Source: Pontibacter fetidus (lineage in GTDB: Bacteria > Bacteroidota > Bacteroidia > Cytophagales > Hymenobacteraceae). Taken from it: a stretch of 64,000 nucleotides of DNA. The notes under the pieces were generated by a model, which did no database searches, was not told the DNA's origin, and was given only the letters and a program-made list of their open reading frames with translations. Below are positions 1-64,000 of this stretch, in pieces (the stretch's first letter is position 1; each line of letters opens with the position of its first letter). The translations under genes and the position numbers were made by a program. Location of the stretch: the NCBI RefSeq assembly GCF_010119545.1, contig NZ_JAAEAA010000013.1, positions 62,001-126,000 of the forward strand. The letters run 5' to 3'.

Positions 1-751
1 TGGTAGCTACTGGTTTACCCTCTTTATCAAAACCGTGCGGTGAAGCTACATTCTGCACCCCTTTCAGGTCGTTTACCGAAGTATAAGAACGGGTCATGCC
101 CAGTGGCTGGAAGAAGGTTTCTTTTATATAGTTTTCCCAGGTCTTGCCAGTTACATTTTCAATCACTTCACCAGCGGTTATAAACATCAGGTTAGAGTAG
201 CCATAACCATCCCGGAAACCATAATCGGGCTCCAGGTACTGCATTCTCCGGATAATTTCTTCGCGGCTATAGTTGGTGTTGTACCAAAGCAGGTCGCCGC
301 CAAATGTTCTAAGCCCTGCACGGTGGCTTAGTAAGTCTTCTATAGTCAGGTTTTCGGTAACGTATGGCGAATACATTTTCAGGTATGGGATGTACTTATT
401 TACCTTGTCTGTCCATTTTATTTTGCCAGCATCAACTAGGGTTGCCAGCGCAGCCGAAGTATAGGCTTTGGAGTTAGACGCGATTCCGAAAAGTGTATTG
501 GCATCTACTTGCCCGCCTGTTTTGTTGTTAAGTACGCCATAGCCTTTGGCAAATATTACTGAGTCGTTTTTAACGATAGCAATAGCCATTCCCGGCACAT
601 CCCAGTCTTTTAAAGCTTTTTGGTAGTAAGCATCGAGTTTGGCTATAGTTGCGGCATTATTGTTTTTCTGAGCCAGGGCAGGCTGCAATATAAAGCACAG
701 CAACAGGCTCAGTAGCAGGAAACTTCTGCGCAAAGTAGTCAGGTTGTTCAT
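1..751 (-). CDS. Beta-lactamase-family serine hydrolase (C-terminus cut by window edge)
   Basis: The reading frame is open from the ATG at 749-751 to the left edge, giving the first 250 or so residues. It starts with a hydrophobic signal peptide ending near ALAQ, so the product is exported to the periplasm or cell surface. An SNSK sequence (SxxK; nucleophile Ser and general-base Lys) follows GIA, and GYSN supplies the YxN motif. This is the class C beta-lactamase / D-aminopeptidase / esterase EstB fold. The family includes penicillin-binding proteins, esterases and peptidases, so the substrate cannot be named and true beta-lactamase activity should not be assumed. The third motif (K/HxG) would lie beyond the edge. 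No operon partner is visible; the downstream (left) side is not in view. Confidence 0.85.
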   Translation of the reverse strand, partial: MNNLTTLRRSFLLLSLLLCFILQPALAQKNNNAATIAKLDAYYQKALKDWDVPGMAIAIVKNDSVIFAKGYGVLNNKTGGQVDANTLFGIASNSKAYTSAALATLVDAGKIKWTDKVNKYIPYLKMYSPYVTENLTIEDLLSHRAGLRTFGGDLLWYNTNYSREEIIRRMQYLEPDYGFRDGYGYSNLMFITAGEVIENVTGKTWENYIKETFFQPLGMTRSYTSVNDLKGVQNVASPHGFDKEGKPVAT

Positions 752-964
752 AAGGTTTAATAGTATTTTTAAGGTGTAGCAATATAGGGTTTTTTAGATT
801 GTAAGGGAAATCAGGGGTAGTGTCATTTTGAGGGTAGTGAGATCTGTTTTTTTATGAACTAGCAATGTGTCCAGCTTTTGCTAGAGCCTAATACTATAGT
901 TGAACATTTGTCATTTCGACGCAAGGAGAAATCTGTACCAGCTTTTAGTTAATTATAGTTGCAT

Positions 965-1195
965 CTTGAGCCAAGCTATACTTTCAAATTTCCTCTAATC
1001 CTGGGAGCTTTACCTACCCATCGTTTCAAATGAGCTTTGGTGCCCTCACGGCCGGGAGGCCCCGTCTTCGGGCATCGCGCTGCTGCCTTCTTGCTATCCT
1101 CGTTCCTCGGATTGGCTCACGCCACCGCAACAAGTCAAAGGCGCTCAACCCAAAGACTGCTATCTTTCTATTATGTTCCTCTGTCTATAGTTTGA
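965..1195 (+). repeat. GC-rich dispersed repeat 'A', copy 1
   Basis: This is a run of about 230 bp that is also found at 37129-37350 (same orientation) and 59625-59842 (inverted). The best-conserved parts are the blocks around GGTGCCCTCACGGCCGGG, GCATCGCGCTGCTGCC, and GTCAAAGGCGCTCAACCC. The core contains small perfect hairpins (GGCC-TCCC-GGCC and CCCG-TCTT-CGGG on one strand or the other). A variable stretch lies between CTATCCTC and CGCCACC. It encodes no consistent protein in any frame across the three copies. The function is unknown; it could be a mobile-element remnant or a structured RNA. Confidence 0.8.
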
Positions 1196-1236
1196 TAGTA
1201 TAAGCTTCGAGATTGATCGTGGGTATAGTTTCGTAG

Positions 1237-1256
1237 GAACAGGTCGCGACCTGTCC
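1237..1256. repeat. Palindrome 'B' (ACAGGTCGCGACCTGT core), copy 1
   Basis: The 16-bp core is a perfect inverted repeat, with one outer mismatch here. Sister copies are at 37400-37419 (perfect over 20 bp) and 59533-59552 (one central change). All three lie on the same side of a repeat 'A' copy and share the flanking words cgtagg and tgtcc. Confidence 0.8.
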
Positions 1257-1525
1257 GCCTCATGGACTATAACTATGAATCTATACAGTCAACTATAATT
1301 ATAGCCAAAAAATCCCCTCTTGAGAGGGGCAGGGGTGTGTTATAGCAAAGGCTTCACGCATCTCGTCACAAGATCCTTCCAGGATGACAAATAAAGTAGT
1401 AGTAGCAGTAAAAACTCCCTCTCCTGTATTGGGGGTAGGAACCCTCTTCAAAAGGAGAGGGCTGGGGTGAGGTTAAATCCTGCTAATCCATTAATCCTGC
1501 AAATCCTGATTCAGACAAGCTTACT

Positions 1526-2497
1526 CTAATTCCCTTCCTCTCTTGGTTTGTGCGGGCCGGTTTCGTAGTCTTTTTTCTCCATTTCCAGGCGGTGCAGTTC
1601 TTCGGGGGTAAGGGAAGTGGCGAGTGTGCCTAAATTTGGTTGTCCGGCATCTACCCAGGCGGTATACCAAAAGCTGGCAACGGTTTGTATCGCTAAGCGC
1701 ATTTGCCGCTCTACCTGGCCGTTCAGCTTTTTACTATAGGCTTCCGAAAATTCGCGGGAGTAAACACGGGTGGTCAGGTTATTTCGCAGTTCAAAGCCGT
1801 ATTTTTTCTCCTCATCAAAAGCTATAGTTAACTGGCGCTCAAAACTCAGCACAGAATCAAGGGCTATGTGGGCGCTGGCAACCAGGTCCCAGGCCCGCAG
1901 CTGCGGATTAGTAATGTACTGTGCAGGACCTACAAAAAAGTCATAGTTATCTGAAAACAGTTCCGGCAACCGCGACTCCCAGAAGCCATGTATCCCGCGC
2001 TGATCGGTAAGTTGCCCGTTATAGTTGCTGGTGGTGTGCAGCGGCACGCAGGCATCTGCAATGTAATGGCCCAGGTCAGACGACACCCGGAGTATTTTGT
2101 CCAGGTTCCGTTCTTTAAACGCCTGCGTAAGCTGATACTTCATAAAATTGATGTGCCAGGGCACAATGCCAAACGCCATTAAGGTGTCTTCGGTAAACTT
2201 TTCGACGGCGGGCTGCCAGTAACGTGGTAATTTATACAGGGCGCTGTCGCCATACTCGTCTAAGTCAATGTAGTGGCGCGGAGCTTCGCCTTCTACTGCG
2301 TAACGGCGCTTGTCGGGGTTAACGGCGTTCTCGGTAATGTAACGGATGTGTTTCTTGTAAAATCCGACCATTTCGGGAGGTAAGGCAAACACAGCCAGCC
2401 GGTTAATACGCTGGTGTGCGTAAAATCCCCAACTATAGCTATGCAAGGGCAGCAGCAAAGCAAACAGCACAAATACAGTTGTTATAGTTCGGGCCAT
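1526..2497 (-). CDS. Secreted zinc-dependent phospholipase C / S1-P1 nuclease-like protein
   Basis: The 323-residue product begins with a signal peptide (about 1-22). Cleavage after SYS would leave Trp23 as the mature N-terminus. In the phospholipase C / P1 nuclease superfamily the N-terminal Trp is itself a zinc ligand, and the other ligands are recognisable: His28, the HYID pair near 75-78, HYIAD at 144-148 with PLH at 152-154, and His170 with Glu174 (GIHGFWES). That set supports a trinuclear-zinc hydrolase acting on phosphodiesters outside the cytoplasm. Whether lipid or nucleic acid is the substrate cannot be told. The gene appears monocistronic; its stop codon lies about 10 bp from an AT-rich dispersed repeat. 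A low-complexity charged tail ends the protein. Confidence 0.75.
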   Translation of the reverse strand: MARTITTVFVLFALLLPLHSYSWGFYAHQRINRLAVFALPPEMVGFYKKHIRYITENAVNPDKRRYAVEGEAPRHYIDLDEYGDSALYKLPRYWQPAVEKFTEDTLMAFGIVPWHINFMKYQLTQAFKERNLDKILRVSSDLGHYIADACVPLHTTSNYNGQLTDQRGIHGFWESRLPELFSDNYDFFVGPAQYITNPQLRAWDLVASAHIALDSVLSFERQLTIAFDEEKKYGFELRNNLTTRVYSREFSEAYSKKLNGQVERQMRLAIQTVASFWYTAWVDAGQPNLGTLATSLTPEELHRLEMEKKDYETGPHKPREEGN

Positions 2498-2726
2498 ACA
2501 TGCCCTGTACGCAATAAAACGATAAGTTGGTTTATAACCATTGCCTGGCTAATCGCTAAATTATTTATGCTTTTCTGAACTATAGTTAAACACCCGTTCA
2601 GGTTTTGCCTGCCATACCAGTATAGTTAATGCTGAAAAATTTTACGGATGATTTTAATCATCTAATGTAAATAGCTTAACCTATACCTTTGAGATTAGTT
2701 AAATAATTGAATCTACGGTTAAAAAT

Positions 2727-3791: not shown

Positions 3792-3942
3792 GTTAGGTTA
3801 TACTTGAAGAGTAGTGAAACTATAGTTAATTGATAATTACTATATTTGATAAGCAGCTACTCCTGCTATCTACCGTATTTGGCAGATAGTAGGAGTAGGT
3901 ACTCCAGATATCCAATAGTTATAACCAATTTTAGATACAAAA

Positions 3943-5648: not shown

Positions 5649-6015
5649 AGTATGCATTTGCACCACAAAGGTAAGTATTTAATTGCTGATTGTTACTTGT
5701 TGATTGTTTGGAGATTTAATTGCTGAATTGCTGTAATGTCAGGTTGCTGAAGGATTAATTGCTAAATGGTTGGCTCAACTATAGTTTATGAAGCAAATTG
5801 TTTATCTCTATAGCGCTTTAACTTTCTAACCTTCTAACTTCCCAACTTTCTAACTTAATCAACTCCTAAATTATAACACCGGCTGTAGTAGTGTGGCAAA
5901 ACGCAACCCTGTTAAATTTGTACTTGTATAGATAAGTAGCCCTTCCGTATATTGAAGCGTAATTGGTAGTGCGGCTTGGTATTTGAGCGGATACTACACA
6001 GACACACAAAGAACT
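5649..6015. other. AT-rich divergent intergenic region
   Basis: No gene is seen. The region has microrepeats of attgctgatt/ttgctgaa (about 5681-5770), tandem ctttctaac-like units (about 5821-5858), one full AACTATAGTT palindrome at 5777-5786, and a perfect TAAATTTG -7 box at 5913-5920 about 95 bp before the ctpA start. No good TTTG -33 partner is seen for that box. Confidence 0.5.
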
Positions 6016-19909: not shown

Positions 19910-19928
19910 TAGCCCAAACTATAAAACT

Positions 19929-20831
19929 ATGATTCAGCTTGTTGGCATCCCTACTTTTGCAGGTGCCCTTTACCCTGGTACAGAAGCTACCCCGGTTGCT
20001 TTGCGTAGCCACGGCTTGCTACAAACTATAGCAGATGCAGGTATAACAGTTTCTGATTTTGGTGATATAGCCTTGCCAACCGATCTGCCGAGACACAACG
20101 TTCCCCCGGTTCGTAACTGGCCGGCCCCACGTATGGTCTGGGAAACTATAGTTGCGCAGGGAAGTAGTTGGTTTGATCCTGAAAAATTTAACCTGTTGCT
20201 GGGCGGCGACTGTAGCATAGTGGTTGGGGTGGCTGATCATCTGGCCAAACTATACGGCGACAAACTATACTTGCTGGTAATTGATGCCCATGTGGATGTA
20301 GTTAAGCCGGACCCGAATGTATGTGTTGGCGCTGCGGCCATGGGGCTGTGGTTTTTAACAAATAAGAACCTGCTCTGGCCAAAGCCCGAAACTATAAATC
20401 CGGAGCAAATAACTGTAGTAGCCTGCCAGAACCCACCTGCTGAAACCTACGGTATTCAAACTATAACCCTGGAGCAACTGCGCCAAAGTATAAAACAAAC
20501 TATAGTTTCTGTACTTTCAAATATCCCGGAAGATGCCAAAATCCTGATCCATTTTGATGTGGATAGTGTGGGTAAAGACGAAATGCCAGCTGCTTACGCG
20601 CCCTCCGAAACCGGCTTAACTATAGTTGAGTGCCACGAATTGTTGACCAACATTATAGCCGACCCGCGAACGATAGCCATGGAAGTAACAGAGTTTTCGG
20701 CTATAAAAGACGAAGATGGACACAATGCATGGAGCCTGAATAACTTGCTCGCTGATAGTTTACGTGAAGGACTAAAAGAGCGTAAATTGCAAACCGGGCA
20801 GGAAACTATAGTTGTAAACCAGAACAATTAA
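19929..20831 (+). CDS. Arginase/agmatinase/formimidoylglutamase family (ureohydrolase) protein
   Basis: Starting at ATG 19929 gives 300 residues of ureohydrolase fold; the longer open frame upstream overlaps the DUF5522 gene in another frame and is rejected. Manganese-site motifs are DAHVD at 119-123 (Asp119, His121, Asp123) and FDVDS (Asp210, Asp212). The first metal motif reads GGDCS (92-96) instead of the usual GGDHS, so Cys95 stands where a His ligand is expected. The family hydrolyses guanidino groups (arginine, agmatine, formiminoglutamate). The nearby ornithine aminotransferase favours arginase, but substrate and activity are open. The gene carries nine AACTATA words, four as full palindromes. 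Confidence 0.8.
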   Translation: MIQLVGIPTFAGALYPGTEATPVALRSHGLLQTIADAGITVSDFGDIALPTDLPRHNVPPVRNWPAPRMVWETIVAQGSSWFDPEKFNLLLGGDCSIVVGVADHLAKLYGDKLYLLVIDAHVDVVKPDPNVCVGAAAMGLWFLTNKNLLWPKPETINPEQITVVACQNPPAETYGIQTITLEQLRQSIKQTIVSVLSNIPEDAKILIHFDVDSVGKDEMPAAYAPSETGLTIVECHELLTNIIADPRTIAMEVTEFSAIKDEDGHNAWSLNNLLADSLREGLKERKLQTGQETIVVNQNN

Positions 20832-22610: not shown

Positions 22611-22685
22611 ACTGAACTATAAACAAGGGTTTAAACTATAGTTTTGCGACCTAAACCTGAACTTTGCAATAAAATTTATAGTTTG

Positions 22686-24689: not shown

Positions 24690-26006
24690 GTGAAAGTAAG
24701 AAGCTTAAAGAAGGATAAGGTAAACGTGATCACCTTGGGTTGTTCTAAAAACCTGGTGGATTCGGAAGTGTTGATGGGGCAGCTGCGTGCCAACGAGTTT
24801 GATGTGGCGCATGAGTCTGACAAAGATGATTCGAACATCATTATCGTTAACACCTGCGGCTTTATAGATAATGCCAAGCAGGAATCTATAGATACTATTC
24901 TGCGCTACGCCGATGCCAAAGAAGCCGGCCAGATAGATAAACTATACGTAACGGGTTGCCTTTCGCAGCGCTACAAAGATTCTCTGGAAGCTGAGATTCC
25001 GCAGGTTGATGCCTACTTTGGTACACTGGAATTGCCGCGTTTGCTCAAAACCCTGGAAGCAGACTATAAGCATGAACTGATCGGTGAGCGTTTACTGACT
25101 ACGCCATCTCATTACGCTTACTTTAAGATTGCCGAAGGCTGTAACCGCCCGTGTTCTTTCTGTGCGATACCGCTGATGCGTGGCAAGCATGTAGATCGCC
25201 CGATCGAAGACCTGGTGAAGGAAGCAAAGCGCCTGGCAGGTATGGGTACCAAAGAACTTATACTTATTGCCCAGGATCTTACTTACTACGGTTTGCAGCA
25301 GTACGGCGAGCGCAAGCTAGCTGACCTGTTAAGAAATCTTTCGGACGTAGAAGGTATTGAGTGGATCAGGATGCAGTATGCCTACCCGTCGCAGTTCCCG
25401 ATGGAAGTGTTTGATGTGATGGCTGAGCGCGACAACATCTGCAAGTACCTGGATATGCCGTTGCAGCACATCTCCGATAATATGCTGAAGACGATGCGCC
25501 GCGGTATCAGCAAGCGCAGAACTATAGAACTGGTAGATTCTATTCGCCAGCGTGTGCCGGACATTGCGTTGAGAACAACGCTTATTGCAGGTCACCCAGG
25601 CGAAACAGACCAGGACTTCCAGGAACTATACGATTGGGTAGAAGAAACACGCTTCGACAGATTAGGCATTTTTGCTTACTCTCACGAAGATAACACGCAC
25701 TCGTTTACGTTGGAAGATAACGTGCCGGACGAAGTGAAGCAGGAGCGTGCTGATGCCATTATGGAACTGCAGCAGGGGATTTCTGTAGAGTTGAACGAAG
25801 AGAAAGTTGGCAAAACTTACAAAGTGCTGTTCGATAGAAAAGAAAGCGGTTATTTCGTAGGCCGTACCCAATACGACTCTCCGGAAGTAGATAACGAAGT
25901 ACTGGTGCCAGCCGATAGCAATTATGTGCGCTTAGGTGATTTTGCAAATGTGAAGATCACGGATTCGTCTGATTTTGACCTGTATGGCGAAGTAATAGCC
26001 GAGTAA
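24690..26006 (+). CDS. rimO: Ribosomal protein uS12 methylthiotransferase RimO (GTG start)
   Basis: RimO is a radical-SAM enzyme that methylthiolates a conserved Asp of ribosomal protein uS12. The 438-residue product has the MTTase N-terminal domain with Cys18, Cys56 and Cys90 (LGCSKNLVDSE; NTCGFI; TGC). The radical-SAM cluster is GCNRPCSFC (Cys151, 155, 158), and a C-terminal TRAM domain spans about 370-438. The start is GTG at 24690, 3 bp after the upstream stop; no better ATG precedes the conserved N-terminus. The VDSE variant of the first motif separates RimO from MiaB. Confidence 0.96.
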   Translation: MKVRSLKKDKVNVITLGCSKNLVDSEVLMGQLRANEFDVAHESDKDDSNIIIVNTCGFIDNAKQESIDTILRYADAKEAGQIDKLYVTGCLSQRYKDSLEAEIPQVDAYFGTLELPRLLKTLEADYKHELIGERLLTTPSHYAYFKIAEGCNRPCSFCAIPLMRGKHVDRPIEDLVKEAKRLAGMGTKELILIAQDLTYYGLQQYGERKLADLLRNLSDVEGIEWIRMQYAYPSQFPMEVFDVMAERDNICKYLDMPLQHISDNMLKTMRRGISKRRTIELVDSIRQRVPDIALRTTLIAGHPGETDQDFQELYDWVEETRFDRLGIFAYSHEDNTHSFTLEDNVPDEVKQERADAIMELQQGISVELNEEKVGKTYKVLFDRKESGYFVGRTQYDSPEVDNEVLVPADSNYVRLGDFANVKITDSSDFDLYGEVIAE

Positions 26007-27386: not shown

Positions 27387-27779
27387 AGTTTTATTTTTAA
27401 AGTTTGATGTACAGAAAGATAAGCGTTATAGTTTATAGTTAAAAATTTGTCTGAATCAGGATTTATAGGATTTTAATAGATAAGGGAGGGTGATTAGAAA
27501 TTTCCCTCCTTGGACTACCGAGAAGTGATTTCGAGCGTAGCTCTGAGGGGCAGGGGTGGTTTGATTTGCCAACTATAAAACGATACACCCAGACACTAGC
27601 AGGAGCTTCGCACACTGCTAGGTCTAAAAAACCGGTAAATCCTTGGGGTAGGGGCCTTACTTATATTTCAGACAAAAAAATAAAAGCCGTACTTTGTGGC
27701 GTGGGCGGTAAACTATAGTTTGCCTGAAACACAAACCCGATAAAGCTGTTAAAGTAGCTATAAAACAACCTCGCTCCTG
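27387..27779. repeat. Intergenic region made of dispersed repeat fragments
   Basis: No gene is seen. Elements are an inverted gtctgaatcaggat block (about 27447-27475), a block reading actaccgagaagtgatttcg to ggggcaggggtgg (about 27512-27560) that recurs inverted at 59408-59478, a 35-bp hairpin (27591-27625), and several AACTATA words. Confidence 0.65.
27591..27625. repeat. 35-bp imperfect hairpin repeat, copy 1
   Basis: AGACACTAGCAG ... CTGCTAGGTCT forms an imperfect hairpin. Equally long copies are found at 36934-36968 (inverted) and 60027-60061 (same orientation), all in gene-free gaps. Confidence 0.75.
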
Positions 27780-35327: not shown

Positions 35328-35351
35328 CGGCAAATTTGTTTTACGCTTAAA

Positions 35352-36794
35352 CTATAGTTTGTCTATAGTAGCTGATAGGTTTCCTTTTGCATTTATTACA
35401 GTCCGGATAGCGGTCGGAGTCAGGTAGATGTTATCAGGTTCTATCGTCTGTATCTTGCCTTTCAGTAATACCGATTCGTATACGCGGCCCTGCTTATCCA
35501 AAGCCTGCTGCAGCGATTTATGTGCTTCGGTTAGCTGGTCTTTTACCGGTATGTTCACCTGCTGCTGTATCATGTCTTTAAACTTGTTTTTGGCTAACCA
35601 ACTGGCCGTGTTCAGCAATTTGTCCTTCGTTTCGAGGGTGTAATCTACATCACGCACTTTTATAGATGCCGTGGCTGCATCGTAATAAGGTGTGCCTTTT
35701 AAGTATACTTTGCCCACAATTTTTTTGGTGAACAAACCCGCTTTTGTTTTGCCGTTTACATCCAGCATCAGCACCAGTTGGTCGCCGCCAGGCGTTATAG
35801 TAGCATCTTTTACGGTTAGCTGGCTTTTGCCTTCGTCGAATTTATAGGTCTGGTTGGCTACCTGCTGCTGCAGCATTTTGCTGGCCTGTGTGTACGGAAT
35901 ATCGGCTGTCAGCCCGACCTGTATGTTATCAGTCAGTTTGTTGTCCAGCACCAGGTTTGGCAGCTTTTTTAGGGATTGCGCTTTGGGCTTTCCGTCGGTG
36001 GTTACGTTTATATAAGAGGTAATGCCAATGCGCATAGCCAATGTACCGTTTCGTGCCTGAAGTGGTGTAACTCTAACATCCTGTGGCAACACCTGCAGCC
36101 AGGCATTCATGCCGTCATCTACCTTAACCGGCTCCTGCAACATATTCCAGGCTTGCTGCACATATTGTTTTACATTTATCTGCTTCTGTAGTTCGGCATC
36201 AAGTTGTTTGGTAAGTGTTGCCATCTGCTTGCGCAGTTCCGGTTCTACAAAGCGGGCCAACCCGATCTTTAGCGGACCCAGTTCCAGCACAGGCTTGGTG
36301 TTTCCCCATTCAAAATCGCCGGTGGTAGTGGTCTTTAGTTTATAGTCTTCCGTCAGCCCGATCTTGCTTTCTGTGTTAATCACCATGTCAAACCGGGTGT
36401 CTTCAGTCTTATCGATGGCCGGGCAAAGCTTACAAGGGTCCCATTTCCAGCGGCCTTTGGCATAAATATTCAGCGGCACACTAAAGTAGATCTTATCCTT
36501 ATCAGCCCGGATGCTCATGCGGCCATTCTTGCTCACAGTTACAGCCACATCGTCATCGTCGAGGTTCGTGTCTTTGTATAGTACGCCTGTAAATTGTCGG
36601 TTCAGCATTTCCTCTAAAGTAGCCACCTGCACACTTACCGGTATAGTGATAGAAGATAGTTTGGGCTGGTAAACAGGAGCGGCAGCTATAGTTGCAGCAG
36701 GTGCTTCGGTTTGCAGTTTAGCGGTGCTGGTGCAGCCGGATAGATAAAGCAACGTTGTAAGCAACAGGGTTGCTATAAAGGGCGTGGTTCTCAC
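35352..36794 (-). CDS. DUF4403 lipoprotein
   Basis: The 480-residue protein starts with a lipoprotein signal (LYLSGC, Cys21). The mature protein has the DUF4403 pattern: SSITIPVSVQVATLEEMLNR, the WKWDPCKLCPAIDKT region with two Cys, alternating amphipathic strands, and a second half starting around ISYINVTTDGKPK. The strand pattern is reminiscent of tubular lipid-binding or SMP-like repeats, but that is only a suggestion. Function unknown; the gene is monocistronic and flanked upstream by a 1.1-kb repeat island. Confidence 0.8.
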   Translation of the reverse strand: MRTTPFIATLLLTTLLYLSGCTSTAKLQTEAPAATIAAAPVYQPKLSSITIPVSVQVATLEEMLNRQFTGVLYKDTNLDDDDVAVTVSKNGRMSIRADKDKIYFSVPLNIYAKGRWKWDPCKLCPAIDKTEDTRFDMVINTESKIGLTEDYKLKTTTTGDFEWGNTKPVLELGPLKIGLARFVEPELRKQMATLTKQLDAELQKQINVKQYVQQAWNMLQEPVKVDDGMNAWLQVLPQDVRVTPLQARNGTLAMRIGITSYINVTTDGKPKAQSLKKLPNLVLDNKLTDNIQVGLTADIPYTQASKMLQQQVANQTYKFDEGKSQLTVKDATITPGGDQLVLMLDVNGKTKAGLFTKKIVGKVYLKGTPYYDAATASIKVRDVDYTLETKDKLLNTASWLAKNKFKDMIQQQVNIPVKDQLTEAHKSLQQALDKQGRVYESVLLKGKIQTIEPDNIYLTPTAIRTVINAKGNLSATIDKL

Positions 36795-36968: not shown

Positions 36969-37128
36969 AATGCTATAGTTGGTTATTTGTCATTCCGAGC
37001 ACTCCTGAGACACGAGTCGAAAGGAGCCAGCGTAGCTGTGAGAAATCTTATGTGTCCTATAATATCTTTTTGTCATTTCTAACAAAGTGAGAAATCTATC
37101 TCGAACTATAGTTGGTTATAGTCGCTAG

Positions 37129-37419: not shown

Positions 37420-37869
37420 GCATCATGGACTGAAATTATGAAACTATAGCTTTAACTATAGCAAAAGCAGAAAATTCCCCTCTTGAGAGGGGCTAGGGGT
37501 GTGTTCTAGCAAAGGCCTAACGCATCTTTCCACAAGATCCTTCCAGGATGACAGAAAAAGTGGTAAGTAAAAACTCCCTTTCCTGTTTTTAGGAGAGGGT
37601 TAGGGAGAGGTAAAACAAGGGCAGTTGGACCACGCTAACTATGGAACTACAAGTAACGCCTTTGCCTGTCCCTGTCGGGCCAGTTGCATCTGGAGATACA
37701 ACATCATAGTTCGACACGAGCGTGGACGCTCGCGCCAGCAATTATTAACAATAAAACTATAGTTTAATCCTGTAAATCCTAAAATCCTGCAAATCCTGAT
37801 TCAGACAAAACTCCAGCTTTTCAAAAGGAGAGGGCTGGGGTGAGGTTCAATCCTGATTCGAACAAAACA

Positions 37870-39232: not shown

Positions 39233-40417
39233 ATGACATTTGAAGAATACCTTGTAAAGAAGCGCATCAATAAAGCTGCATTTGCTGCCGGCGACCCCGT
39301 ACGTTTTGCTGCCTGGGCCGATATGTATGACCAGATGCACCAGAACAGCTTTTACATTGCCACTAAAATGGTGATAAACGATGTGCGCCTAAGGTATCAT
39401 TTAAAAGAGGAAGATGTGCCGAAAGCCGCGCCTGCACCTGCAGCAGCAAAACCAGTTATGCGCCGTGCTGCTCCTGCGGCCTCCGAAACTATGGAGACTG
39501 CGGAGCCTGCCGTTCCACAGGAAACACCGGAAGCTGCGCCAGCACCACGACCAGTTGTAAAGCGCCCGACCACAGCCAGACCAACTATAGCTAAACCTGC
39601 TGCAACCGAAGGCGAAACTATAAAGACCGACGAAGCTCAGCCTGAGAAAGCAGCAGAGCCGGGTAAAGCGCGTCCGGTTATAAAAAGGCCGGTAATTGCC
39701 AGACCTGCGCCAACTACAGAAGGTGAAAACACAGCGGACAAACTGGCAACTGAAAGCCCTGTGCCGGCCCGTCCACGACCGGTAATAAAGCGCCCGGCTG
39801 CGTTACAGAAACATGCTACGGATGAACCCGAATCCAGCATACCCGCTGAGCCAACTATAACTCCGGAAACCGAAGCCTCGAAACCAGCTGCGCGACCAAG
39901 ACCAGTTATCAAAAGGCCAGCAGCTCTACAGAAATCAGCTGAAGAAAAACTACCGGAAACGGAAAAGCCAACTATAGAACCGACCGGAGAAACTATAAAA
40001 CCGGAAGAAACTATAGTTTCAGGTGAAGCAGAGGCACCAAAGCCTTTACGACCAAGGCCAGTTATAAAACGCCCGGTTGCGTTGCAGAAACCTGGAACCG
40101 AAGAAACAAAGCCTGAGGAAACAAAAACTCCAGAGCAAACTATAAACGCTACGGAAGAACCTGCTGCACCAAAGCCGCCCAGGCCACGACCAGTTATCAA
40201 AAGGCCAACGCCAGCTGCAGGGCAAACTATACCGGATGCCAAACGGGAAGAGCTGAACCCAGCTCCAGCTATAGAAAACTCTGAACCAGCGCAGCCAACT
40301 ATAAACGAAGCAAAAACAGATCAGCCCGAGGCATCGGCACCAGACGAAACGATACAGCCAAAGCCGCCGCGCCCAAGGCCCATTATTAAAAGGCCACCGC
40401 CAAAAACCGACATATAA
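39233..40417 (+). CDS. Proline/lysine-rich repeat protein with small folded N-terminus
   Basis: The 394-residue protein has a predicted helical head (1-62, FEEYLVKKRINKAAF ... VRLRYHL) and a disordered tail. The tail is built of at least seven RPRPVIKRP-type repeats, most followed by AALQK, VALQK or a similar word, separated by acidic linkers of 25-45 residues rich in Glu/Pro/Thr. There is no signal peptide or membrane segment. The tail alternates strongly basic repeat and acidic linker. Many linker Thr-Ile pairs are encoded by the iterated ACT ATA word. I do not recognise the family; similar tails occur in Bacteroidota proteins with unknown roles. It lies between tdh and kbl, 55 bp before kbl. 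Confidence 0.7.
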   Translation: MTFEEYLVKKRINKAAFAAGDPVRFAAWADMYDQMHQNSFYIATKMVINDVRLRYHLKEEDVPKAAPAPAAAKPVMRRAAPAASETMETAEPAVPQETPEAAPAPRPVVKRPTTARPTIAKPAATEGETIKTDEAQPEKAAEPGKARPVIKRPVIARPAPTTEGENTADKLATESPVPARPRPVIKRPAALQKHATDEPESSIPAEPTITPETEASKPAARPRPVIKRPAALQKSAEEKLPETEKPTIEPTGETIKPEETIVSGEAEAPKPLRPRPVIKRPVALQKPGTEETKPEETKTPEQTINATEEPAAPKPPRPRPVIKRPTPAAGQTIPDAKREELNPAPAIENSEPAQPTINEAKTDQPEASAPDETIQPKPPRPRPIIKRPPPKTDI

Positions 40418-40472
40418 CTATAGTTTATGCTATCTTAGAGCGAATAACGAACAACGATAAACGAATAACGAA

Positions 40473-48074: not shown

Positions 48075-48581
48075 ATGCTAATTTTCTTAATCGGTATGAT
48101 GGGCAGCGGCAAGACCACTCTGGGCAAAGAACTGGCTACAGAACTGAACTATAGTTTCGTGGACCTGGATGCCTTTATCGAGGAAAAAGAAGGCAGAACT
48201 ATAGCGCAAATTTTTGAACAGGAAGGGCAGGAGCGGTTCCGGAAAATAGAACGCGAGGCGCTGCAAACTATAGTTGCCAACTATAAAAACGCCATAGTTG
48301 CTACTGGCGGCGGCACACCCTGCTTCTTCGATAACATGGCCCTGATGAATGCTGGCGGTGAGACCATTTTCCTGGATGTACCTGCCGAATTTATTGCCCA
48401 AAGACTCTCACAGTCAGACTTATCTACGCGTCCGCTGCTAGCTGGCAAAACACAATCCGAACTATTCTCGTTTGTAGGCGAAACATTAGCCGAACGCCGG
48501 CAATTTTATGCGCAGGCAAAACACATAGTTGCGCGCCCGCCGTATACTATAGATGCATTGCTGGCGTTGTTTTCGCTGTAA
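48075..48581 (+). CDS. aroK: Shikimate kinase
   Basis: The 168-residue P-loop kinase phosphorylates shikimate in aromatic amino acid synthesis. Walker A is GMMGSGKTTLG (Lys13), the shikimate-binding acids lie in FVDLDAFIE (about 28-36), Arg residues in FRKIER (55-60), and the GGG turn in VATGGGTPC (about 75-83). Length is normal. No other aro gene is adjacent. The intergenic region upstream is AT-rich with repeated attaat/attcat words. Confidence 0.96.
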   Translation: MLIFLIGMMGSGKTTLGKELATELNYSFVDLDAFIEEKEGRTIAQIFEQEGQERFRKIEREALQTIVANYKNAIVATGGGTPCFFDNMALMNAGGETIFLDVPAEFIAQRLSQSDLSTRPLLAGKTQSELFSFVGETLAERRQFYAQAKHIVARPPYTIDALLALFSL

Positions 48582-49293: not shown

Positions 49294-49606
49294 TATAACT
49301 ATAGTTTTACGACGTGTTAGGGAGCCCCGGGCTCCCTTTTTTATTGCTACAACCAGCCACTTTTAGCTAATTATGATATAGTGTATAACTAATGTTTAAA
49401 CACTGTATGTGTCTGATTTACAGCAGAGGCTATTGCACTATAAGAACAAAAGCTGTTTTCTGTAATACTGTATTTTAGAGGTAACATGTTGGTTAGTAGT
49501 AGTATATGTTAAGGTTTTGGTTGATTATATGAATACGTGTTCATATATTCGCATCCCGATATAAACCATAGTAGAAAACCTATATACTTCGAGCTACAGA
49601 CCAGGA
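49294..49606. other. AT-rich intergenic region before the first T9SS cargo gene
   Basis: It holds the terminator at 49319-49342, then about 250 bp of AT-rich DNA with no gene or dispersed repeat. The sequence from about 49370 to 49560 may carry the promoter for 49607, but no good TTTG/TAnnTTTG pair was found. Confidence 0.4.
49319..49342 (+). terminator. Rho-independent terminator
   Basis: AGGGAGCC/GGCTCCCT stem with a 3-nt loop and a run of six Ts, after the fatty acid hydroxylase gene. Confidence 0.85.
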
Positions 49607-51961
49607 ATGAAAAAGCCAGTAATTTGCAGCAGTGTACTTATTCTCTTTTTCATGCTGTGTGGTTTAACTATAAATCCGGTTGTTGCCCAGATCAGCATTC
49701 CCCAAATGACGGCGGATGGTTATCAGTTAAAGCACACCTACACTCAGGACTTTAATGCCCTGCCCACGTCTGGTACCTGGGCAAACAACAGCACCTTGTC
49801 CGGTTGGTATGCAAGGCCCCTTAGCGGCAGTACGCCAACTACCATTGCTGCAAACGACGGTTCATCCGGTACAGTGGGGCTGTATAGTTTCGGGAGCCTT
49901 GGCAGCACAGACAAAGCCTTGGGCGGGCACGGCGCCAATGGCTATGGCGGCTATTATTATGCGGCACGCTTCAGAAACAACTCCGGCCAAACTATAAAGC
50001 ACATTAAAATAAGCTATACACTGGAGCAATGGTACACCATTAAACAGGCAGGCTCTGCTTTAAATTTTGACTATGCCATAGGTGCTTTAGTAAATAGCCC
50101 GGTTGCAGCTATTACCTGGGTGCCGGTCGCGCCGCTCTCTACTAACATACAAGTCCCTATTCCGAAAGGCAGCGGTAATACCAGCGTTCTCGATGGAAAT
50201 ATGGCAGCTAACAGAGCTCAGGCAGCCTACCTGGTGCTGGATGTAAACTTGGCTCCCAACCAGGAAATTATGTTGCGCTGGAGCCAACCCGACTCTTATA
50301 ACGGAACAGGAAGTGGAAAAGAGTACCCATCATCGGCTTTAGATGATGTAGAAATTGAGTTTCTCCAGAACGATGTTTTTTATGCTACCAGCCAGGTGCT
50401 GAGCAATAAAGCCAGCTGGAACACCGATGTGGCAGGTACGGGCAGAAACCCGACCGATTTTTCGATTAAAGACCAGATGTTTGTTGTAGCCACCGCCGGC
50501 AACTATAAACTAAGTAAAGACCTCACAATTGCAGGGCTAAACTCTAAACTGATACTCGGCGAAGAGCCAGCTGCCGCAACCTTAACTATACCTTTCAAAT
50601 ACAAACTTGCCGCAACTGTTGATATTGCCAATGGCTCCACGCTGCTTATAAACCACGAGTTGGCTGCCCCTGCATTTGGTAACCTTGCACCTAACAGCAA
50701 TGTGGTCTATAACACTGATAGTACGGCGGCACCCGTGCAAGGCAACTATGGCAACCTGCTTATTAAAGGTGGCAAAGAGAAACTGATAGATATGCCGGTG
50801 CAGGTGCGCGGTAGGTTAAAGCTGGAAAATACAGGCGTACACCTAAAAAGCGCAACCATAACCCTGGAAAACGGAGCAACTATAGAACCAACCGGTAACG
50901 CAGCAATTATTAAGATTGGTCAGGGTGGTAAAGTAAAGCAATATGTGCAGCCAGGCAGTACCCGGTTTTTACCGGTAGGTTCGCAGCTAAGTTATACGCC
51001 CGTTAACATTACTTTACCAGCAGGCAAGGCGGCACGCTATATAAGTATAGCCTTGGCCGATGCCGTTTATGTACACTACGACAGTTCCCTGAAAGGCATC
51101 GGCGAGCCACTAAAGACGGGGCTGGTAAACAAAGTATGGACAATTAGCCAGGAAGGGGCAACAAGCCCGGATGCCGAACTTACTTTTTACTGGAACCCTG
51201 CAGACGAACTACCAGACTTTGACCGAACCGTTGCAGAGATGGCTTACTATAACGGAACGGCCTGGGAGTCGGCGGGTGGGGTGGTTACAACTATGGCAGG
51301 TGCCCGGGTAGCAGCAAAGGCAACGGCTTCGCCGAGTAACACAGTTACTATAACCAATGCCAGAAGTGGCATGTATGCTATCTGGCAGCCTCCGCGCAAC
51401 CCCTTGCCTGTAGAGCTTACTGCATTTACAGCCAAATACAACTATGGGCAAACTGTGCTTAAATGGACTACAGCATCGGAGCGTAACAGCAATTATTTCG
51501 CTATTGAAACAAGTCCGGATGGCAGGCGCTTTACTGAAGTGGGGCAGGTAAAAGCGGCAGGATTTAGTGCAGTAGTTAACCAGTATAGCTTTACCCATTA
51601 CCCAGCAGCTACCGGTGCAGTTTATTACAGGCTGGCAGAATATGACCTGGACGGAACAAAGACGTATTCTAAAGTGGTGACTGTACAGGTAAAACAGCAT
51701 GGGCCGGCAACTATAGAGGCATACCCTAACCCGGGCCGTGGCCAGCTATATTTGTCATCGGCAACTATAAACGGGCCTGTACGCCTGGTGCTAACCGATA
51801 TGAGCGGCAAAACTATAGTTACACATCAACTTACCTTAACGAGTGGGCAACCCATACTAACAGACCTGCAGCATTTGCCCGAGGGAGTTTACCTGGTGCA
51901 ACTACAGCACACTGCAGGCCGGCAGGTTATCCGGTTGGTGCATTCGCCAAAACAGCCATAA
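49607..51961 (+). CDS. Secreted T9SS cargo protein (type-A sorting domain)
   Basis: The 784-residue protein has a signal peptide (about 1-27). The large N-terminal sandwich-like domain (about 30-255; DFNALPTSGTWANNSTLSGWYA, YYYAARFRNNSGQTI, LDDVEIEFL) is typical of Bacteroidota secreted repeat proteins. A repetitive solenoid-like stretch (about 270-470) follows, then fibronectin-like PLPVELTAFTAKY and a final type-A T9SS sorting domain (about 700-784; EAYPNPGRGQLYL ... GVYLVQL). It will be exported by the T9SS to the surface or medium. Likely adhesion or matrix-related; no enzyme motif seen. Confidence 0.9.
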   Translation: MKKPVICSSVLILFFMLCGLTINPVVAQISIPQMTADGYQLKHTYTQDFNALPTSGTWANNSTLSGWYARPLSGSTPTTIAANDGSSGTVGLYSFGSLGSTDKALGGHGANGYGGYYYAARFRNNSGQTIKHIKISYTLEQWYTIKQAGSALNFDYAIGALVNSPVAAITWVPVAPLSTNIQVPIPKGSGNTSVLDGNMAANRAQAAYLVLDVNLAPNQEIMLRWSQPDSYNGTGSGKEYPSSALDDVEIEFLQNDVFYATSQVLSNKASWNTDVAGTGRNPTDFSIKDQMFVVATAGNYKLSKDLTIAGLNSKLILGEEPAAATLTIPFKYKLAATVDIANGSTLLINHELAAPAFGNLAPNSNVVYNTDSTAAPVQGNYGNLLIKGGKEKLIDMPVQVRGRLKLENTGVHLKSATITLENGATIEPTGNAAIIKIGQGGKVKQYVQPGSTRFLPVGSQLSYTPVNITLPAGKAARYISIALADAVYVHYDSSLKGIGEPLKTGLVNKVWTISQEGATSPDAELTFYWNPADELPDFDRTVAEMAYYNGTAWESAGGVVTTMAGARVAAKATASPSNTVTITNARSGMYAIWQPPRNPLPVELTAFTAKYNYGQTVLKWTTASERNSNYFAIETSPDGRRFTEVGQVKAAGFSAVVNQYSFTHYPAATGAVYYRLAEYDLDGTKTYSKVVTVQVKQHGPATIEAYPNPGRGQLYLSSATINGPVRLVLTDMSGKTIVTHQLTLTSGQPILTDLQHLPEGVYLVQLQHTAGRQVIRLVHSPKQP

Positions 51962-59284: not shown

Positions 59285-59532
59285 AGTATGCAAAGATAAT
59301 AAATTGGTGATAACTGTATGAATCAGGATTTACAGGATTAAAGGATTTACAGGATTGGGGCTGTTGCTATACTTGAAATAGCTATAGTTTCATAGTTGCA
59401 GTTATCCAACCACCCCTGCCCCTCAGAGCTACGCTCGCTACCTTCGAAATCACTTCTCGGTAGTCTAAGGAGGGGAGCTCTACTGCTGCTTCCAATTCAC
59501 AAACTATAGTTCTATAGTTTACGGTATTGAGC

Positions 59533-60061: not shown

Positions 60062-60190
60062 TCTCCTGCTAATCAATCAAATCTCCTTAATCCGTGGTTC
60101 AGACAGAACAAGCAACTATAGTTTCCTGAATCAAATTAATATACCATCTTTACTATATTTAACAGCAGCGGTAAGTTTAAACCTAACTTT

Positions 60191-60286: not shown

Positions 60287-60303
60287 ATTAAAACATAACA
60301 ACT

Positions 60304-61122: not shown

Positions 61123-61140
61123 TTCAAACTATAGCTATAC

Positions 61141-62181
61141 ATGGCTCCTGCAAGAGTAATCTGGCTATACATGGGGTGGGCCGCTTTCTGGTCGGGGGTA
61201 TTTGTGCTGGTGTTATTGCCTGCAAACTATAGCCCGGCCCTGACTCTAAAAGATGCCCTGCTATACAACCTGCTGCTAACTATAGCCGGCTATGCCGCAG
61301 GCACGGGGCTACGCTACTACCAGCCTACATTGCGCCAGGGGGTGTTGCTCTTGGCCTGGAGCTTGGGGTTGGCAGGTATTTGTACGCTGGTTTATAGTTT
61401 GCTGATCGACAAGTTACTAGATGATAAACTATACCTGGCTTTTGTAGGAGATTCGTTGCCGATGAGGTTGGTGTTTGGGTGGTTGCTGCTGTTGCTTTTG
61501 CTGCTGATAAACTGGTTCTGGTTTTACACAAAAGAGCAGCGCCAGCACGAAGAACGCAAAGCGGCCACCGAAAAGCTTGCCCGCGAAGCAGAGCTTTATA
61601 CCTTACGCCAGCAGTTGCAGCCCCATTTTTTGTTTAACAGCCTTAACTCGATCAGTGCGCTGGTGGTAGTCAGGCCAGACCAGGCCCGGACCATGGTACA
61701 GCAACTGTCTGATTTTTTACGGGGCACTTTACGAAAAGAAAACCAGCAACAGGTAACCTTAACCGACGAACTACAGCAACTGGAACTATACCTGGCAATT
61801 GAAAAAGTGCGTTTCGGTCACCGGCTGCAAACTATAGTTGAGGTGTTGGATGATGCCAGAAATCTGAAACTACCCGCCCTGCTGCTGCAACCTATAGTTG
61901 AGAATGCCATTAAGTTCGGGCTTTACGGCACCACCAGCGATACAACTATAACTATAAAAGCTTTCAGGGCAGATGCAAATCTTGTTATAACGATAGAGAA
62001 CCCTTTTGATACCGATGCCGCACAAACGCAGGAGGGAACAGGCTTTGGGTTAAGCTCGGTGCAGCGGCGGTTATACCTGCTTTATGCCCGCCCCGACCTG
62101 GTACAAACACAGCAACACGAAAACCAATTTACCACCACCGTAACTATCCCGCAAAACTATGATCAAGTGCCTCATAATTGA
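61141..62181 (+). CDS. LytS/YehU-type sensor histidine kinase
   Basis: The 346-residue kinase has four membrane helices (about 10-27, 40-56, 67-88, 108-128). A coiled-coil linker (about 130-158) follows. The His_kinase domain has the phospho-acceptor His162 in QLQPHFLFNSLNS, and an HATPase_c domain with LPALLLQPIVENAIKFGL and the glycine-rich GTGFGLSSVQRR. There is no extracytoplasmic sensor domain, so the signal is probably read within the membrane, perhaps via the LiaF-like protein 18 bp upstream. Its end overlaps the regulator start by 23 bp. Confidence 0.94.
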   Translation: MAPARVIWLYMGWAAFWSGVFVLVLLPANYSPALTLKDALLYNLLLTIAGYAAGTGLRYYQPTLRQGVLLLAWSLGLAGICTLVYSLLIDKLLDDKLYLAFVGDSLPMRLVFGWLLLLLLLLINWFWFYTKEQRQHEERKAATEKLAREAELYTLRQQLQPHFLFNSLNSISALVVVRPDQARTMVQQLSDFLRGTLRKENQQQVTLTDELQQLELYLAIEKVRFGHRLQTIVEVLDDARNLKLPALLLQPIVENAIKFGLYGTTSDTTITIKAFRADANLVITIENPFDTDAAQTQEGTGFGLSSVQRRLYLLYARPDLVQTQQHENQFTTTVTIPQNYDQVPHN

Positions 62182-62905
62182 TGATGAACCCCTGGCCCGC
62201 AGTATAGTAGCCGAATACTTGCTGCAACACCCCGATGTAACTATAGTTCAGGAATGTGGCGACGGTTTTGAAGGGATAAAAGCCATTAAACAGCATCAGC
62301 CCGATCTGATCTTTCTGGATATACAAATGCCGAAGATAAATGGCTTTGAGATGCTGGAACTGGTAGAGCAACAGCCGGGCGTGATCTTTACCACTGCCTT
62401 CGATAACTATGCCCTGAAAGCTTTTGAAACCAATGCCGTAGATTATTTACTAAAACCTTTCAGCCAGGAACGGTTTAATACAGCGCTAAAAAAGTGGCAG
62501 GAAAAACGAACGAAAGAAGCTACAGAGAAGCCCGCAACTATAGACCTGAGCGAAGTGCCCGCCAAGCAACCCGAAGAGCGCACCCGCATTGTTGTTAAAG
62601 CCGGCAACGACATCCGGATAATACCCGTGCAGGATGTTTTGTACTTAGAGGCCTACGACGATTATGTAAAGATCCACACCAAAGACGGCCTGTTCCTGAA
62701 AAAGAAAACCATGGGCTACTACGAGCAAACCCTTGATACGGCTCATTTCGTGCGCGTGCACCGTTCTTTTATGATCCCGATCGCCCAGCTCACCCGCATA
62801 GAGCCCTTAGAAAAAGACAGCCACGTAGCCCTGCTTAAAAATGGCGTGCGTGTTCCGCTTAGTAAGAGCGGCTATACCAAACTGCGCACCGTGCTCGGCC
62901 TGTAA
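62159..62905 (+). CDS. LytTR-family response regulator
   Basis: The 248-residue regulator has a receiver domain with acidic pocket Asp8/Asp9, phosphorylated Asp54 (IFLDIQMP) and the LLKPF lysine. A C-terminal LytTR DNA-binding domain spans about 145-247 (RIVVKAGNDIRIIPVQDVLYLEAYDDYVKIHT, HRSFMI). It is the cognate partner of the overlapping kinase gene. The GTTTACCGAC direct repeats upstream of the operon are its likely target. Confidence 0.95.
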   Translation: MIKCLIIDDEPLARSIVAEYLLQHPDVTIVQECGDGFEGIKAIKQHQPDLIFLDIQMPKINGFEMLELVEQQPGVIFTTAFDNYALKAFETNAVDYLLKPFSQERFNTALKKWQEKRTKEATEKPATIDLSEVPAKQPEERTRIVVKAGNDIRIIPVQDVLYLEAYDDYVKIHTKDGLFLKKKTMGYYEQTLDTAHFVRVHRSFMIPIAQLTRIEPLEKDSHVALLKNGVRVPLSKSGYTKLRTVLGL

Positions 62906-63105
62906 TTTTTTTTGTAGTAATCTTTTGTGTTGCAACACCGATCTAGGGTTGTGCCTGCTTTGCCATTGCTATAGTTTGTTACGGCATTGGTCTATATAAC
63001 ACAGCATTTTGTCCGGAAATACGGCGGTCGGGCGACAGGTAGGTTTTTGCAATTTAGCTGGAAACGAGCTTTTTGAGGCTAATTTGGCAACAAAAATTTA
63101 ACACA

Positions 63106-63142
63106 GGAAACTTTCGGAATAAAAATCGTTTCCATAGTTTTG
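63106..63142 (+). promoter_or_regulatory. Inverted GGAAAC repeat and -7 box upstream of the TetR gene
   Basis: GGAAAC (63106-63111) and GTTTCC (63128-63133) are inverted with a 16-bp gap. A further GGAAACGA is at 63060-63067, matching TCGTTTCC at 63126-63133. A perfect TAGTTTTG -7 box (63135-63142) follows. A candidate TetR operator/promoter; weak evidence. Confidence 0.35.
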
Positions 63143-63149
63143 TGCCGCT

Positions 63150-63791
63150 ATGAGTAATGCCGAGATAGAAGAACGCACCGAAACCAGGAGTAAGATTTCC
63201 TGTACCGCTTTCCAGTTGTTTTGCCAGCGGGGTGTTAAAAGTGTGTCGATGGATGATATTGCGCAGTTCCTGAGCATGTCTAAAAAAACGATCTACAAGT
63301 GGTTTGATAACAAGAACGAGATTGTGGTAGCATCAACAGGGGCATACCTGAGCGACATGCAGGAACGTTGCGAAGTGCATTTTCAGAATTCCGGAAATGC
63401 GATTGAAGAGCTGTTCAACATTATGGGCATGACCCGCGAGCTTTTCAACCAGTTTCACCCTTCCCTTTTCCACGACCTGCAAAAATACCACCCCGAAGCT
63501 TTTAAGCTTTGGATGCAGCACCGCGACGACTATATGTTTGTGAAGATAAAAGAGAACCTGGTGCGTGGCATAAAAGAGGGCCTTTACCGCAAAGACCTGG
63601 ATATAGAAGTGATGGCAAAAGTGCGGTTGGTACAAGTAGAGATCCCTTTTAACCCTCAACTGTTTCCGCCGCACAAATATGACCTGAAACGCGTGCAAAT
63701 GGCTACCCTGGAGCACTACATGTTGGGCCTGGCCACACTTAAAGGCCACAAACTGATAAACGAGCTCAAACACATAAAAGAAGAAGAATAA
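63150..63791 (+). CDS. TetR/AcrR-family transcriptional regulator
   Basis: The 213-residue protein has the N-terminal helix-turn-helix (about 30-65; FCQRGVKSVSMDDIAQFLSMSKKTIYKWFDNK) of TetR regulators. An all-helical ligand domain follows. A TolC-type gene starts 24 bp after the stop, the usual arrangement for a repressor of its own RND efflux operon in Bacteroidota. The inducer is unknown. Confidence 0.94.
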   Translation: MSNAEIEERTETRSKISCTAFQLFCQRGVKSVSMDDIAQFLSMSKKTIYKWFDNKNEIVVASTGAYLSDMQERCEVHFQNSGNAIEELFNIMGMTRELFNQFHPSLFHDLQKYHPEAFKLWMQHRDDYMFVKIKENLVRGIKEGLYRKDLDIEVMAKVRLVQVEIPFNPQLFPPHKYDLKRVQMATLEHYMLGLATLKGHKLINELKHIKEEE

Positions 63792-63814
63792 CCTACTACC
63801 TGACCAGAATAAAA

Positions 63815-64000
63815 CATGAAAAAAAGACTAACGCTTATAGTTGCTGCCTTCATGCTGCTTGGCTTTACCGGGGCGCAGGCCCAGGAAGTAAAGCAGTTTA
63901 GTTTGCAGCAAAGTATAGACTATGCCCTGCAAAACCGCGCAAACCTGAAAGCCGCCCAAAACGATGAAAAGATCGCAAAAGCCAAAGTAGGGGAGATACG
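63815..64000 (+). CDS. TolC-family outer-membrane efflux protein (N-terminus; cut by window edge)
   Basis: The first 62 codons are visible. A signal peptide (about 1-22, ending AQAQ) is followed by VKQFSLQQSIDYALQNRANLKAAQND, the classic start of OEP/TolC barrels (SLxxAIxxALxNN.L). It lies 24 bp after the TetR gene and probably leads into periplasmic-adaptor and RND-pump genes outside the window. Confidence 0.88.

Follow-up and report, generated by a model that had tools for sequence, protein, structure and literature searches.

Why should one short word recur hundreds of times in a stretch of Pontibacter DNA, and what could keep it there? The window analysed here, which is the whole stretch of 64,000 nucleotides (positions 1..64000), contains 22 copies of the palindrome AACTATAGTT by direct count (Table 1), and its + strand carries 135 AACTATA and 104 TATAGTT, giving 239 half-sites over both strands, or 3.7 per kb. 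A sequence-only reading of this DNA had described the palindrome as a highly iterated signal; AACTATAGTT is found at all seven of the positions that it listed, and the nine AACTATA that it counted by hand in a 903-bp arginase-family gene start at 20024, 20144, 20248, 20263, 20390, 20459, 20498, 20618 and 20804, in the last 903 bp of the ORF. The excess extends across the whole genome, with 1087 palindromes against 5 copies of the reversed word, and so is not confined to the window. Half-site density is about 3 per kb, the excess is 14-25 fold, and extrapolation from 464 kb gives about 12,000 motif sites in the genome.

Table 1. Copies of the palindrome in the 64-kb window.
Feature	Position	Strand	Basis
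AACTATAGTT, two overlapping inverted 7-mers	2578..2587		window count
AACTATAGTT	3818..3827		window count
AACTATAGTT	5777..5786		window count
AACTATAGTT, inside arginase-family ORF	20144..20153		window count and ORF position
AACTATAGTT, inside arginase-family ORF	20498..20507		window count and ORF position
AACTATAGTT, inside arginase-family ORF	20618..20627		window count and ORF position
AACTATAGTT, inside arginase-family ORF	20804..20813		window count and ORF position
AACTATAGTT	22634..22643		window count
AACTATAGTT	27711..27720		window count
AACTATAGTT	35350..35359		window count
AACTATAGTT	37104..37113		window count
AACTATAGTT	37755..37764		window count
AACTATAGTT	40009..40018		window count
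AACTATAGTT	40416..40425		window count
AACTATAGTT	48147..48156		window count
AACTATAGTT	48266..48275		window count
AACTATAGTT	49297..49306		window count
AACTATAGTT	51811..51820		window count
AACTATAGTT	59502..59511		window count
AACTATAGTT	60114..60123		window count
AACTATAGTT	61830..61839		window count
AACTATAGTT	62239..62248		window count

With congeners that either use the spelling AAGTATA or are motif-free as training set, Markov models of orders 2-6 predict 7-20 half-sites and <0.3 palindromes per 64 kb. When 464 kb of the genome itself serve for training, models of orders 2, 3, 4, 5 and 6 predict 14, 44, 107, 171 and 194 half-sites, against 239 observed in the window, and 0.1, 0.8, 4.9, 15.9 and 22.15 palindromes, against 22 observed. 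The sequence-only reading had been prepared to withdraw the signal if a model of order 4-6 reproduced the palindrome count, which at order 6 is literally the case. The excess of the 7-mer nevertheless stays unexplained, because at order 6 a model trained on this genome already includes the whole 7-mer; its figure of 194 is simply the genome average, and the window is somewhat denser. Over 50 rounds of synonymous-codon shuffling within each of 353 ORFs, 121 +/- 8.5 half-sites remain and never more than 142, compared with 805 observed. The 20 single-mismatch neighbours of the half-site, AAGTATA left out, are also enriched, with 2344 copies where scaling from six congeners gives 1512, a pattern expected of decay products. 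The palindrome needs nothing beyond its overlapping 7-mers to account for it: the iteration described earlier is real, but the unit is the asymmetric 7-mer AACTATA followed by a purine, and the 10-bp palindrome is secondary.

Comparison across the genus places this word in a wider series. The motif has the general form A-[A/G]-[G/C]-T-A-T-A, usually followed by a purine, and occurs thousands of times in most Pontibacter genomes in three related spellings, AACTATA (as in this genome), AAGTATA and AGGTATA. As in the DNA uptake sequences (DUS) of Neisseriaceae and the USS of Pasteurellaceae, these dialects largely track the family tree; AGGTATA marks a separate clade, with one exception in E15-1 (G115), which uses it from outside that clade. 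In 9 congeners the motif is weak or absent, and it was not seen in the sampled members of the rest of the family and order. Orthologous regions of relatives were fetched with the ORF at 24690..26006 (+), which by its sequence appears rimO-like, as an anchor that is not itself part of the signal. In this region, AACTATA and AAGTATA counts per 20 kb run from 59/3 (G117), 66/9 (G119), 73/13 (G083) and 64/15 (G097) through 51/38 (G028), 32/45 (G055) and 20/59 (G038) to 4/50 (G077), and the nested clade vulgaris-unc903-G055-AAC5 has an SH-aLRT of 99. A nested series of species, including the lineage of this window, is therefore part-way through a change from AAGTATA to AACTATA. AAGTATA had been taken for a looser variant of the half-site; it is indeed common, with 59 copies in the window, but it is an older spelling being replaced rather than a relaxed version of the new one.

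Site conservation follows the spelling. Measured against words of the same composition, in counts that pool species pairs with common history, the odds of conservation are 2-6 times as high for motif sites when the partner genome shares their spelling, and are lower after a spelling change. Within the AACTATA set, 289/435 motif sites are conserved compared with 534/1590 control words (odds ratio, OR, 3.9); the OR is 4.2 within AGGTATA and 2.1 and 2.8 within AAGTATA. AAGTATA sites give an OR of 6.0 against vulgaris, 4.3 against other AAGTATA species and 2.6 against unc903/G055, falling to 0.7 against switched genomes, 0.3 against the AGGTATA clade and 0.1 against two motif-free species. The new AACTATA sites lie mostly at new places: in 15 comparisons (five AACTATA genomes with three AAGTATA relatives), 2-8 of 28-42 AACTATA sites are AAGTATA in the relative, and 58-82% differ there by two or more bases.

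Sites are about three times denser between genes than within them (7.3 vs 2.1 per kb), and they peak near stop codons and in the gaps between convergent genes. In G083, sampled as 20 stretches of 20 kb, 551 sites fall on the G-rich and 525 on the C-rich strand; these samples show neither an orientation with replication of the Chi type nor the strong polarity toward the terminus of KOPS-type signals, which speaks against the segregation target that had been suggested. One of the 20-kb samples, a low-GC polysaccharide-type locus (L006), holds 14 sites compared with 40-86 in the other 19, and the second contigs of three genomes are motif-poor, with 4, 11 and 2 AAGTATA per 20 kb. We infer that L006 is a foreign island and that the second contigs are foreign or plasmids; on that origin, the motif is scarce on horizontally acquired DNA, as are DUS and USS.

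Could the motif, then, be a tag by which Pontibacter recognises its own DNA? The proposal that it serves as a genus-specific self-DNA tag akin to DNA uptake sequences, and that preferential uptake without pili followed by recombination maintains it, appears to us evenly poised between true and false. It is suggested by the extreme excess of a short word on both strands genome-wide, as in DUS and USS, by three descent-tracking dialects with a change in progress, by dialect-specific conservation, by both-strand, intergenic-biased placement, by scarcity on the island and second contigs, and by absence in scattered congeners. A putative surface DNA receptor would favour motif-carrying fragments, which would enter by a pilus-independent competence route through inner-membrane ComEC, on the model of Riemerella, for which PMC8459023 describes pilus-independent transformation. 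Homologous recombination would then replace motif-less alleles by motif-bearing ones, and the motif would build up wherever coding permits. A one-base shift in receptor preference would leave old sites unprotected and decaying while the new spelling accumulated at old and new places, and loss of uptake would let the motif fade. The sequence-only reading had named HIP1, uptake sequences and methyltransferase targets together; genome-wide iteration stands, uptake is the best of these alternatives, and the non-palindromic spellings and the patchy methyltransferases of two families speak against HIP1 or methylation.

The gene content of 50 genomes bears on this route. ComEC is present in 50/50, its match being interrupted by a stop in two motif-bearing genomes (G043 and G087), and it does not discriminate because motif-free congeners carry it too. 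A search limited to the pilus/T2SS ATPase (PF00437) found no type IV pilus ATPase, its matches (3/50 genomes just above cut-off) spanning at most 66/370 positions; a type IV pilus with a minor-pilin receptor, as expected of DUS and USS systems, was thus not found by this search. By eye, no obvious receptor adjoins comEC in G000. A short DUF5689 protein considered as receptor occurs in 12/50 genomes and 1/19 of those with AAGTATA only, is absent from G028 and G038, and does not track the motif. Since the dialect tracks descent, apparent coevolution of a gene with it is difficult to distinguish from shared ancestry.

Among known systems, the closest likeness is to the DUS of Neisseriaceae, for which PMC3630211 describes dialects with the same pattern along phylogeny, one genome with two dialects and some family members without DUS; both motifs run to thousands of copies with few-base dialects. 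However, the Pontibacter word is 7-9 bp with a TATA core and DUS are 10-12 bp with a CTG core, and the putative Pontibacter tag comes without a detected pilus ATPase. The USS of Pasteurellaceae is likewise a genome-enriched word with divergent dialects, and has a predicted receptor, ComN/PpdA, among the type IV minor pilins (both in PMC12616744); the ATPase of that machine was not detected in Pontibacter. The USS word itself differs from ours. To our knowledge, uptake tags are established in two families only, Neisseriaceae and Pasteurellaceae, and in both the receptor has been shown or predicted to sit on a pilus. Literature searches found no counterpart of the motif, in keeping with the earlier remark that no named signal of this sequence is known in Bacteroidota, and no uptake or transformation in Pontibacter. 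The fuller claim, that this is a DNA uptake sequence system in Bacteroidota without type IV pili, acting via a putative surface receptor and caught switching from AAGTATA to AACTATA chromosome-wide, is tentative and falls a little short of probable. If true, Bacteroidota evolved an uptake tag of their own, which would give a direct handle on the outer-membrane DNA receptor of the phylum. Even if the motif is not for uptake, three spellings in one genus with visible intermediates offer a rare natural experiment on the joint change of a DNA-recognition protein and its thousands of sites.

Other DNA-recognition proteins could be involved. In a Chi-like signal, the motif would make an AddAB/RecBCD-type repair nuclease stop degrading and start recombining, and a change in its recognition pocket would create a new dialect, a respelling through such a trans-acting protein being just as natural. 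Like Chi, the motif is short, asymmetric, over-represented and conserved, and it is scarce on foreign-looking DNA. Yet Chi words are usually oriented with replication and this one is not, its density and excess are above those of most Chi known to us, and absence from scattered congeners would be odd for a repair function; we consider this explanation unlikely. Selection site by site for binding of a cytoplasmic protein, such as an abundant organiser of the chromosome, which we hold to be rather less probable again, would suit a both-strand, genome-wide, intergenic-biased and conserved motif in which close same-strand pairs are roughly doubled over expectation (483 observed, 233 expected, AACTATA set). 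The extrapolated number of sites is very large for such a protein, and near-complete absence in several congeners and wholesale respelling would have to be tolerated.

About as improbable as protein binding is a HIP1-like word maintained by a methyltransferase and biased mismatch repair, as in Elhai's model. PMC4390886 gives HIP a set point near one per kb, a density of the same order that our motif exceeds, and describes alternate HIPs in place of HIP1 in some cyanobacteria, a replacement resembling the one seen here. HIPs, however, are GC-rich palindromes with cognate methyltransferases, whereas two of three Pontibacter spellings (AAGTATA and AGGTATA) are non-palindromic, and within the two families surveyed (PF02086 in 13/50 genomes, PF01555 in 31/50) neither tracks the motif, with G083, G097, G055, G077, G081, G033 and G121, among other carriers, lacking both. 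Targeted correction also predicts depletion of near-miss words, which are enriched. Finally, neutral mutational bias or codon usage would agree with accumulation where constraint is weakest, and high-order own-genome Markov models, in which most of the word is already built in, recover a large part of the count. It is nonetheless very improbable: codon shuffling and congener-trained models fall short 6.7-fold or more, and sites are conserved according to dialect.

The window (64 kb, 46% GC) contains 135 copies of AACTATA and 104 of the complementary TATAGTT, and the palindrome AACTATAGTT is found in it at 22 places. The source genome (G000; 4.07 Mb, 49 contigs), whose closest relatives by comparison of a rimO-like ORF are Pontibacter species (family Hymenobacteraceae), holds 1404 sites in the 464 kb counted (the window and 20 samples of 20 kb), or 3.0 per kb, which extrapolates to ~12,000 sites per genome. 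The palindrome is two inverted 7-mers that overlap, and such overlaps number 231 among 2684 AACTATA sites, 18 among 496 AGGTATA sites, and 6 among 633 AAGTATA sites. The sequence-only reading had taken the palindrome itself as highly iterated; an order-6 model of the own genome, which contains the 7-mer, predicts its count. After the 7-mer, T is avoided at position 8 in all three spellings (4, 7, and 5%) and a purine is preferred there (73-84%). Extended, the three read approximately AACTATA[G/A], followed by a non-G base that is often T; AAGTATAA[A/C]; and CAGGTATAGC.

These spellings form three dialects across 50 Pontibacter genomes. The palindrome exceeds 100 copies in eight (G119, 1477; G117, 1300; G083, 1164; G097, 1124; G000, 1087; G028, 330; G055, 232; G038, 104). 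AAGTATA exceeds its reversed control more than 8-fold in 23 of the 49 genomes counted (all but G131), as in G107 with 11,818 copies vs 333, and these 23 include G000 (5110), G028, G038, and G055. AGGTATA surpasses control over 10-fold in 12 of the 50 and is dominant yet weaker in E15-1 (3132 copies, 5.7 times control). Since AGGTATA is also raised about 3-7 fold in AAGTATA-rich genomes, as expected of a one-letter neighbor, E15-1 is not distinguished by this ratio alone; the top word of its 20-kb sample is AGGTATA (22 vs 3.6 expected). No spelling is strong in nine genomes (G002, G013, G023, G073, G095, G109, G113, G125, G127), some of which keep 2-4 fold remnants; G131 was placed in no class. 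Outside the genus, the palindrome has 0-8 copies in each of 150 same-family genomes, AAGTATA reaches at most about 2.5 times control in 81 same-family genomes, and ARGTATA at most about 2.3 times in 236 genomes from other genera of the order. A search of open-license literature found no description of a word of this kind, either for Pontibacter or for Bacteroidota.

The change from AAGTATA to AACTATA can be followed in a 20-kb region around the rimO-like ORF, with AACTATA/AAGTATA counts of 20/59 in G038, 32/45 in G055, 51/38 in G028, 64/15 in G097, 73/13 in G083, 66/9 in G119, and 59/3 in G117 (239/59 in the window's 64 kb). A tree of seven proteins from 51 taxa places P. vulgaris, uncultured isolate 903, G055, and then five AACTATA genomes in one nested series, with an SH-aLRT of 99 at each of three enclosing branches; the five as their own group are almost without support (SH-aLRT 9). 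Motif-poor G073 stands with P. vulgaris at an open fork. The old spelling is commoner in G055 than in isolate 903, so that the series is not strictly graded. The deep forks of the genus are unresolved, and two trees conflict there and on the placing of G073 and E15-1, an AGGTATA carrier outside the AGG clade. The labels require 8 changes within Pontibacter; spelling thus largely tracks descent, yet was changed, gained, or lost several times. The rimO regions of P. populi and G083 (L111 and L054) are also raised in a further variant, AACGATA, with 14 copies in 21 kb and 9 in 20 kb, respectively, compared with 2 in P. cellulosilyticus; the rise is less marked across 400 kb of G083 (87 copies).

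At orthologous places in the rimO region, site conservation depends on spelling. Against permuted words of the same letters, same-spelling sites were kept in 289/435 vs 534/1590 cases for AACTATA, 187/276 vs 668/2011 for AGGTATA, and 57/104 vs 190/623 and 107/188 vs 272/714 for AAGTATA, which between two AAG groups was kept in 96/230 vs 181/1270. AAGTATA sites of three AAG species were kept in 54/97 vs 96/553 cases in P. vulgaris, 86/189 vs 267/1096 in isolate 903 and G055, 68/455 vs 569/2692 in switched genomes, and 11/288 vs 173/1688 in three AGG species; in two motif-free species, the sites of four AAG species were kept in 6/162 vs 160/752 cases. AGGTATA sites did not differ from control in three AAG species (24/147 vs 249/1260). 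Any p-value is too small because species pairs have a common history, but composition does not account for the drop in odds ratio (6.0, then 0.7, then 0.1). New sites lie mostly at new places, and part of the old ones were converted from AAGTATA to AACTATA where they stood (8/32 P. cellulosilyticus sites in P. burrus, 4/33 in G000). The 20 single-mismatch neighbors of AACTATA other than AAGTATA number 2344, where scaling from six congeners gives 1512, an excess as for decaying sites; targeted correction would give depletion.

Coding DNA, as delimited by a simple ORF caller, carries 2.1 sites per kb (14 times permuted words) and intergenic DNA 7.3 per kb (25 times), the latter divided into 11.8 for convergent, 7.2 for divergent, and 6.3 for tandem neighbors. 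Stop codons are overlapped in 95 placements among 667 genes of the own and G083 samples, an overlapping palindrome being scored twice. By strand, the G083 sites divide into 551 (G-rich) and 525 (C-rich). Foreign-looking regions are motif-poor. L006, a likely acquired 20-kb stretch of the own genome (35% GC; glycosyltransferase and Wzt-type ABC genes among three ORFs searched), has only 14 sites, and a 20-kb G083 stretch with HipA-like and other accessory genes has 11. In three assemblies made up of two contigs, the second contig is probably a plasmid and carries 4, 11, and 2 AAGTATA per 20 kb, where whole-genome counts predict about 16, 35, and 25. An arginase-family ORF in the window is unusually dense, with nine motifs in its last 903 bp (coding DNA has about two per kb), and finds no match in the part of G038 and of G117 that was sampled.

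The data call for a trans-acting recognizer whose preference shifts by single bases and whose action rewards the presence of the word, not its location. In Neisseriaceae, where dialects track phylogeny and Simonsiella muelleri has two at once, such a pattern is attributed to biased uptake of DNA together with recombination (PMC3630211). We judge the chances about even that the motif works like an uptake sequence. As a DUS or USS proper it falls short at the pilus, a full-length type IV pilus ATPase not being found in the 50 Pontibacter genomes; nor was a motif receptor found. A ComEC match is present in 50/50, and Riemerella, of the same phylum and without pilus homologs, still transforms, using ComEC, DprA, ComF, RecA, and further uncharacterized proteins (PMC8459023); a pilus-free uptake machine in Pontibacter is therefore plausible. 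The comEC match has an internal stop in two dialect-bearing genomes and is intact in motif-poor ones, which does not support uptake; slow tag decay could reconcile the two.

Coordinates of features
Feature	Sequence	Position
rimO-like ORF	window	24690..26006 (+)
Arginase-family ORF	window	19821-20831
CAGGTCGCGACCTG element	window	1240-1253
CAGGTCGCGACCTG element	window	37403-37416
L006	G000:C3	1-20000
comEC match, internal stop	G043:C76	160505-161305
comEC match, internal stop	G087:C1	2771217-2771876
Tandem array (L241)	G202:C1	from about 3715

Other repeats were seen alongside. L241 holds a long tandem array whose ~72-bp unit contains GGAGTACTCC, and 20 kb of Rufibacter ruber (L150) has 34 copies of AAAACAG, most of them in short runs that repeat every 11 bp. 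In Hymenobacter wooponensis (L160), TAGGCCA, dispersed at 38 copies in 21 kb vs 4.8 expected, is possibly another iterated motif in a neighboring genus, and H. caeli, H. coccineus, and H. nivis (L177, L178, L179) carry the dispersed, HIP1-like palindrome GGGGCCCC at about 1.1 per kb. The palindrome CAGGTCGCGACCTG, which most copies spell GGACAGG...CCTGTCC, forms with a conserved flank the basis of another dispersed element that resembles a REP/MITE-type repeat; this element is also present in samples L001, L004, L008, L009, L011, L012, L014, L016, L019, and L020, at about 34 per Mb in own samples, 25 in G083, and more rarely in others. Its flanks contain AACTATA here and AAGTATA in copies from AAG-dialect relatives.
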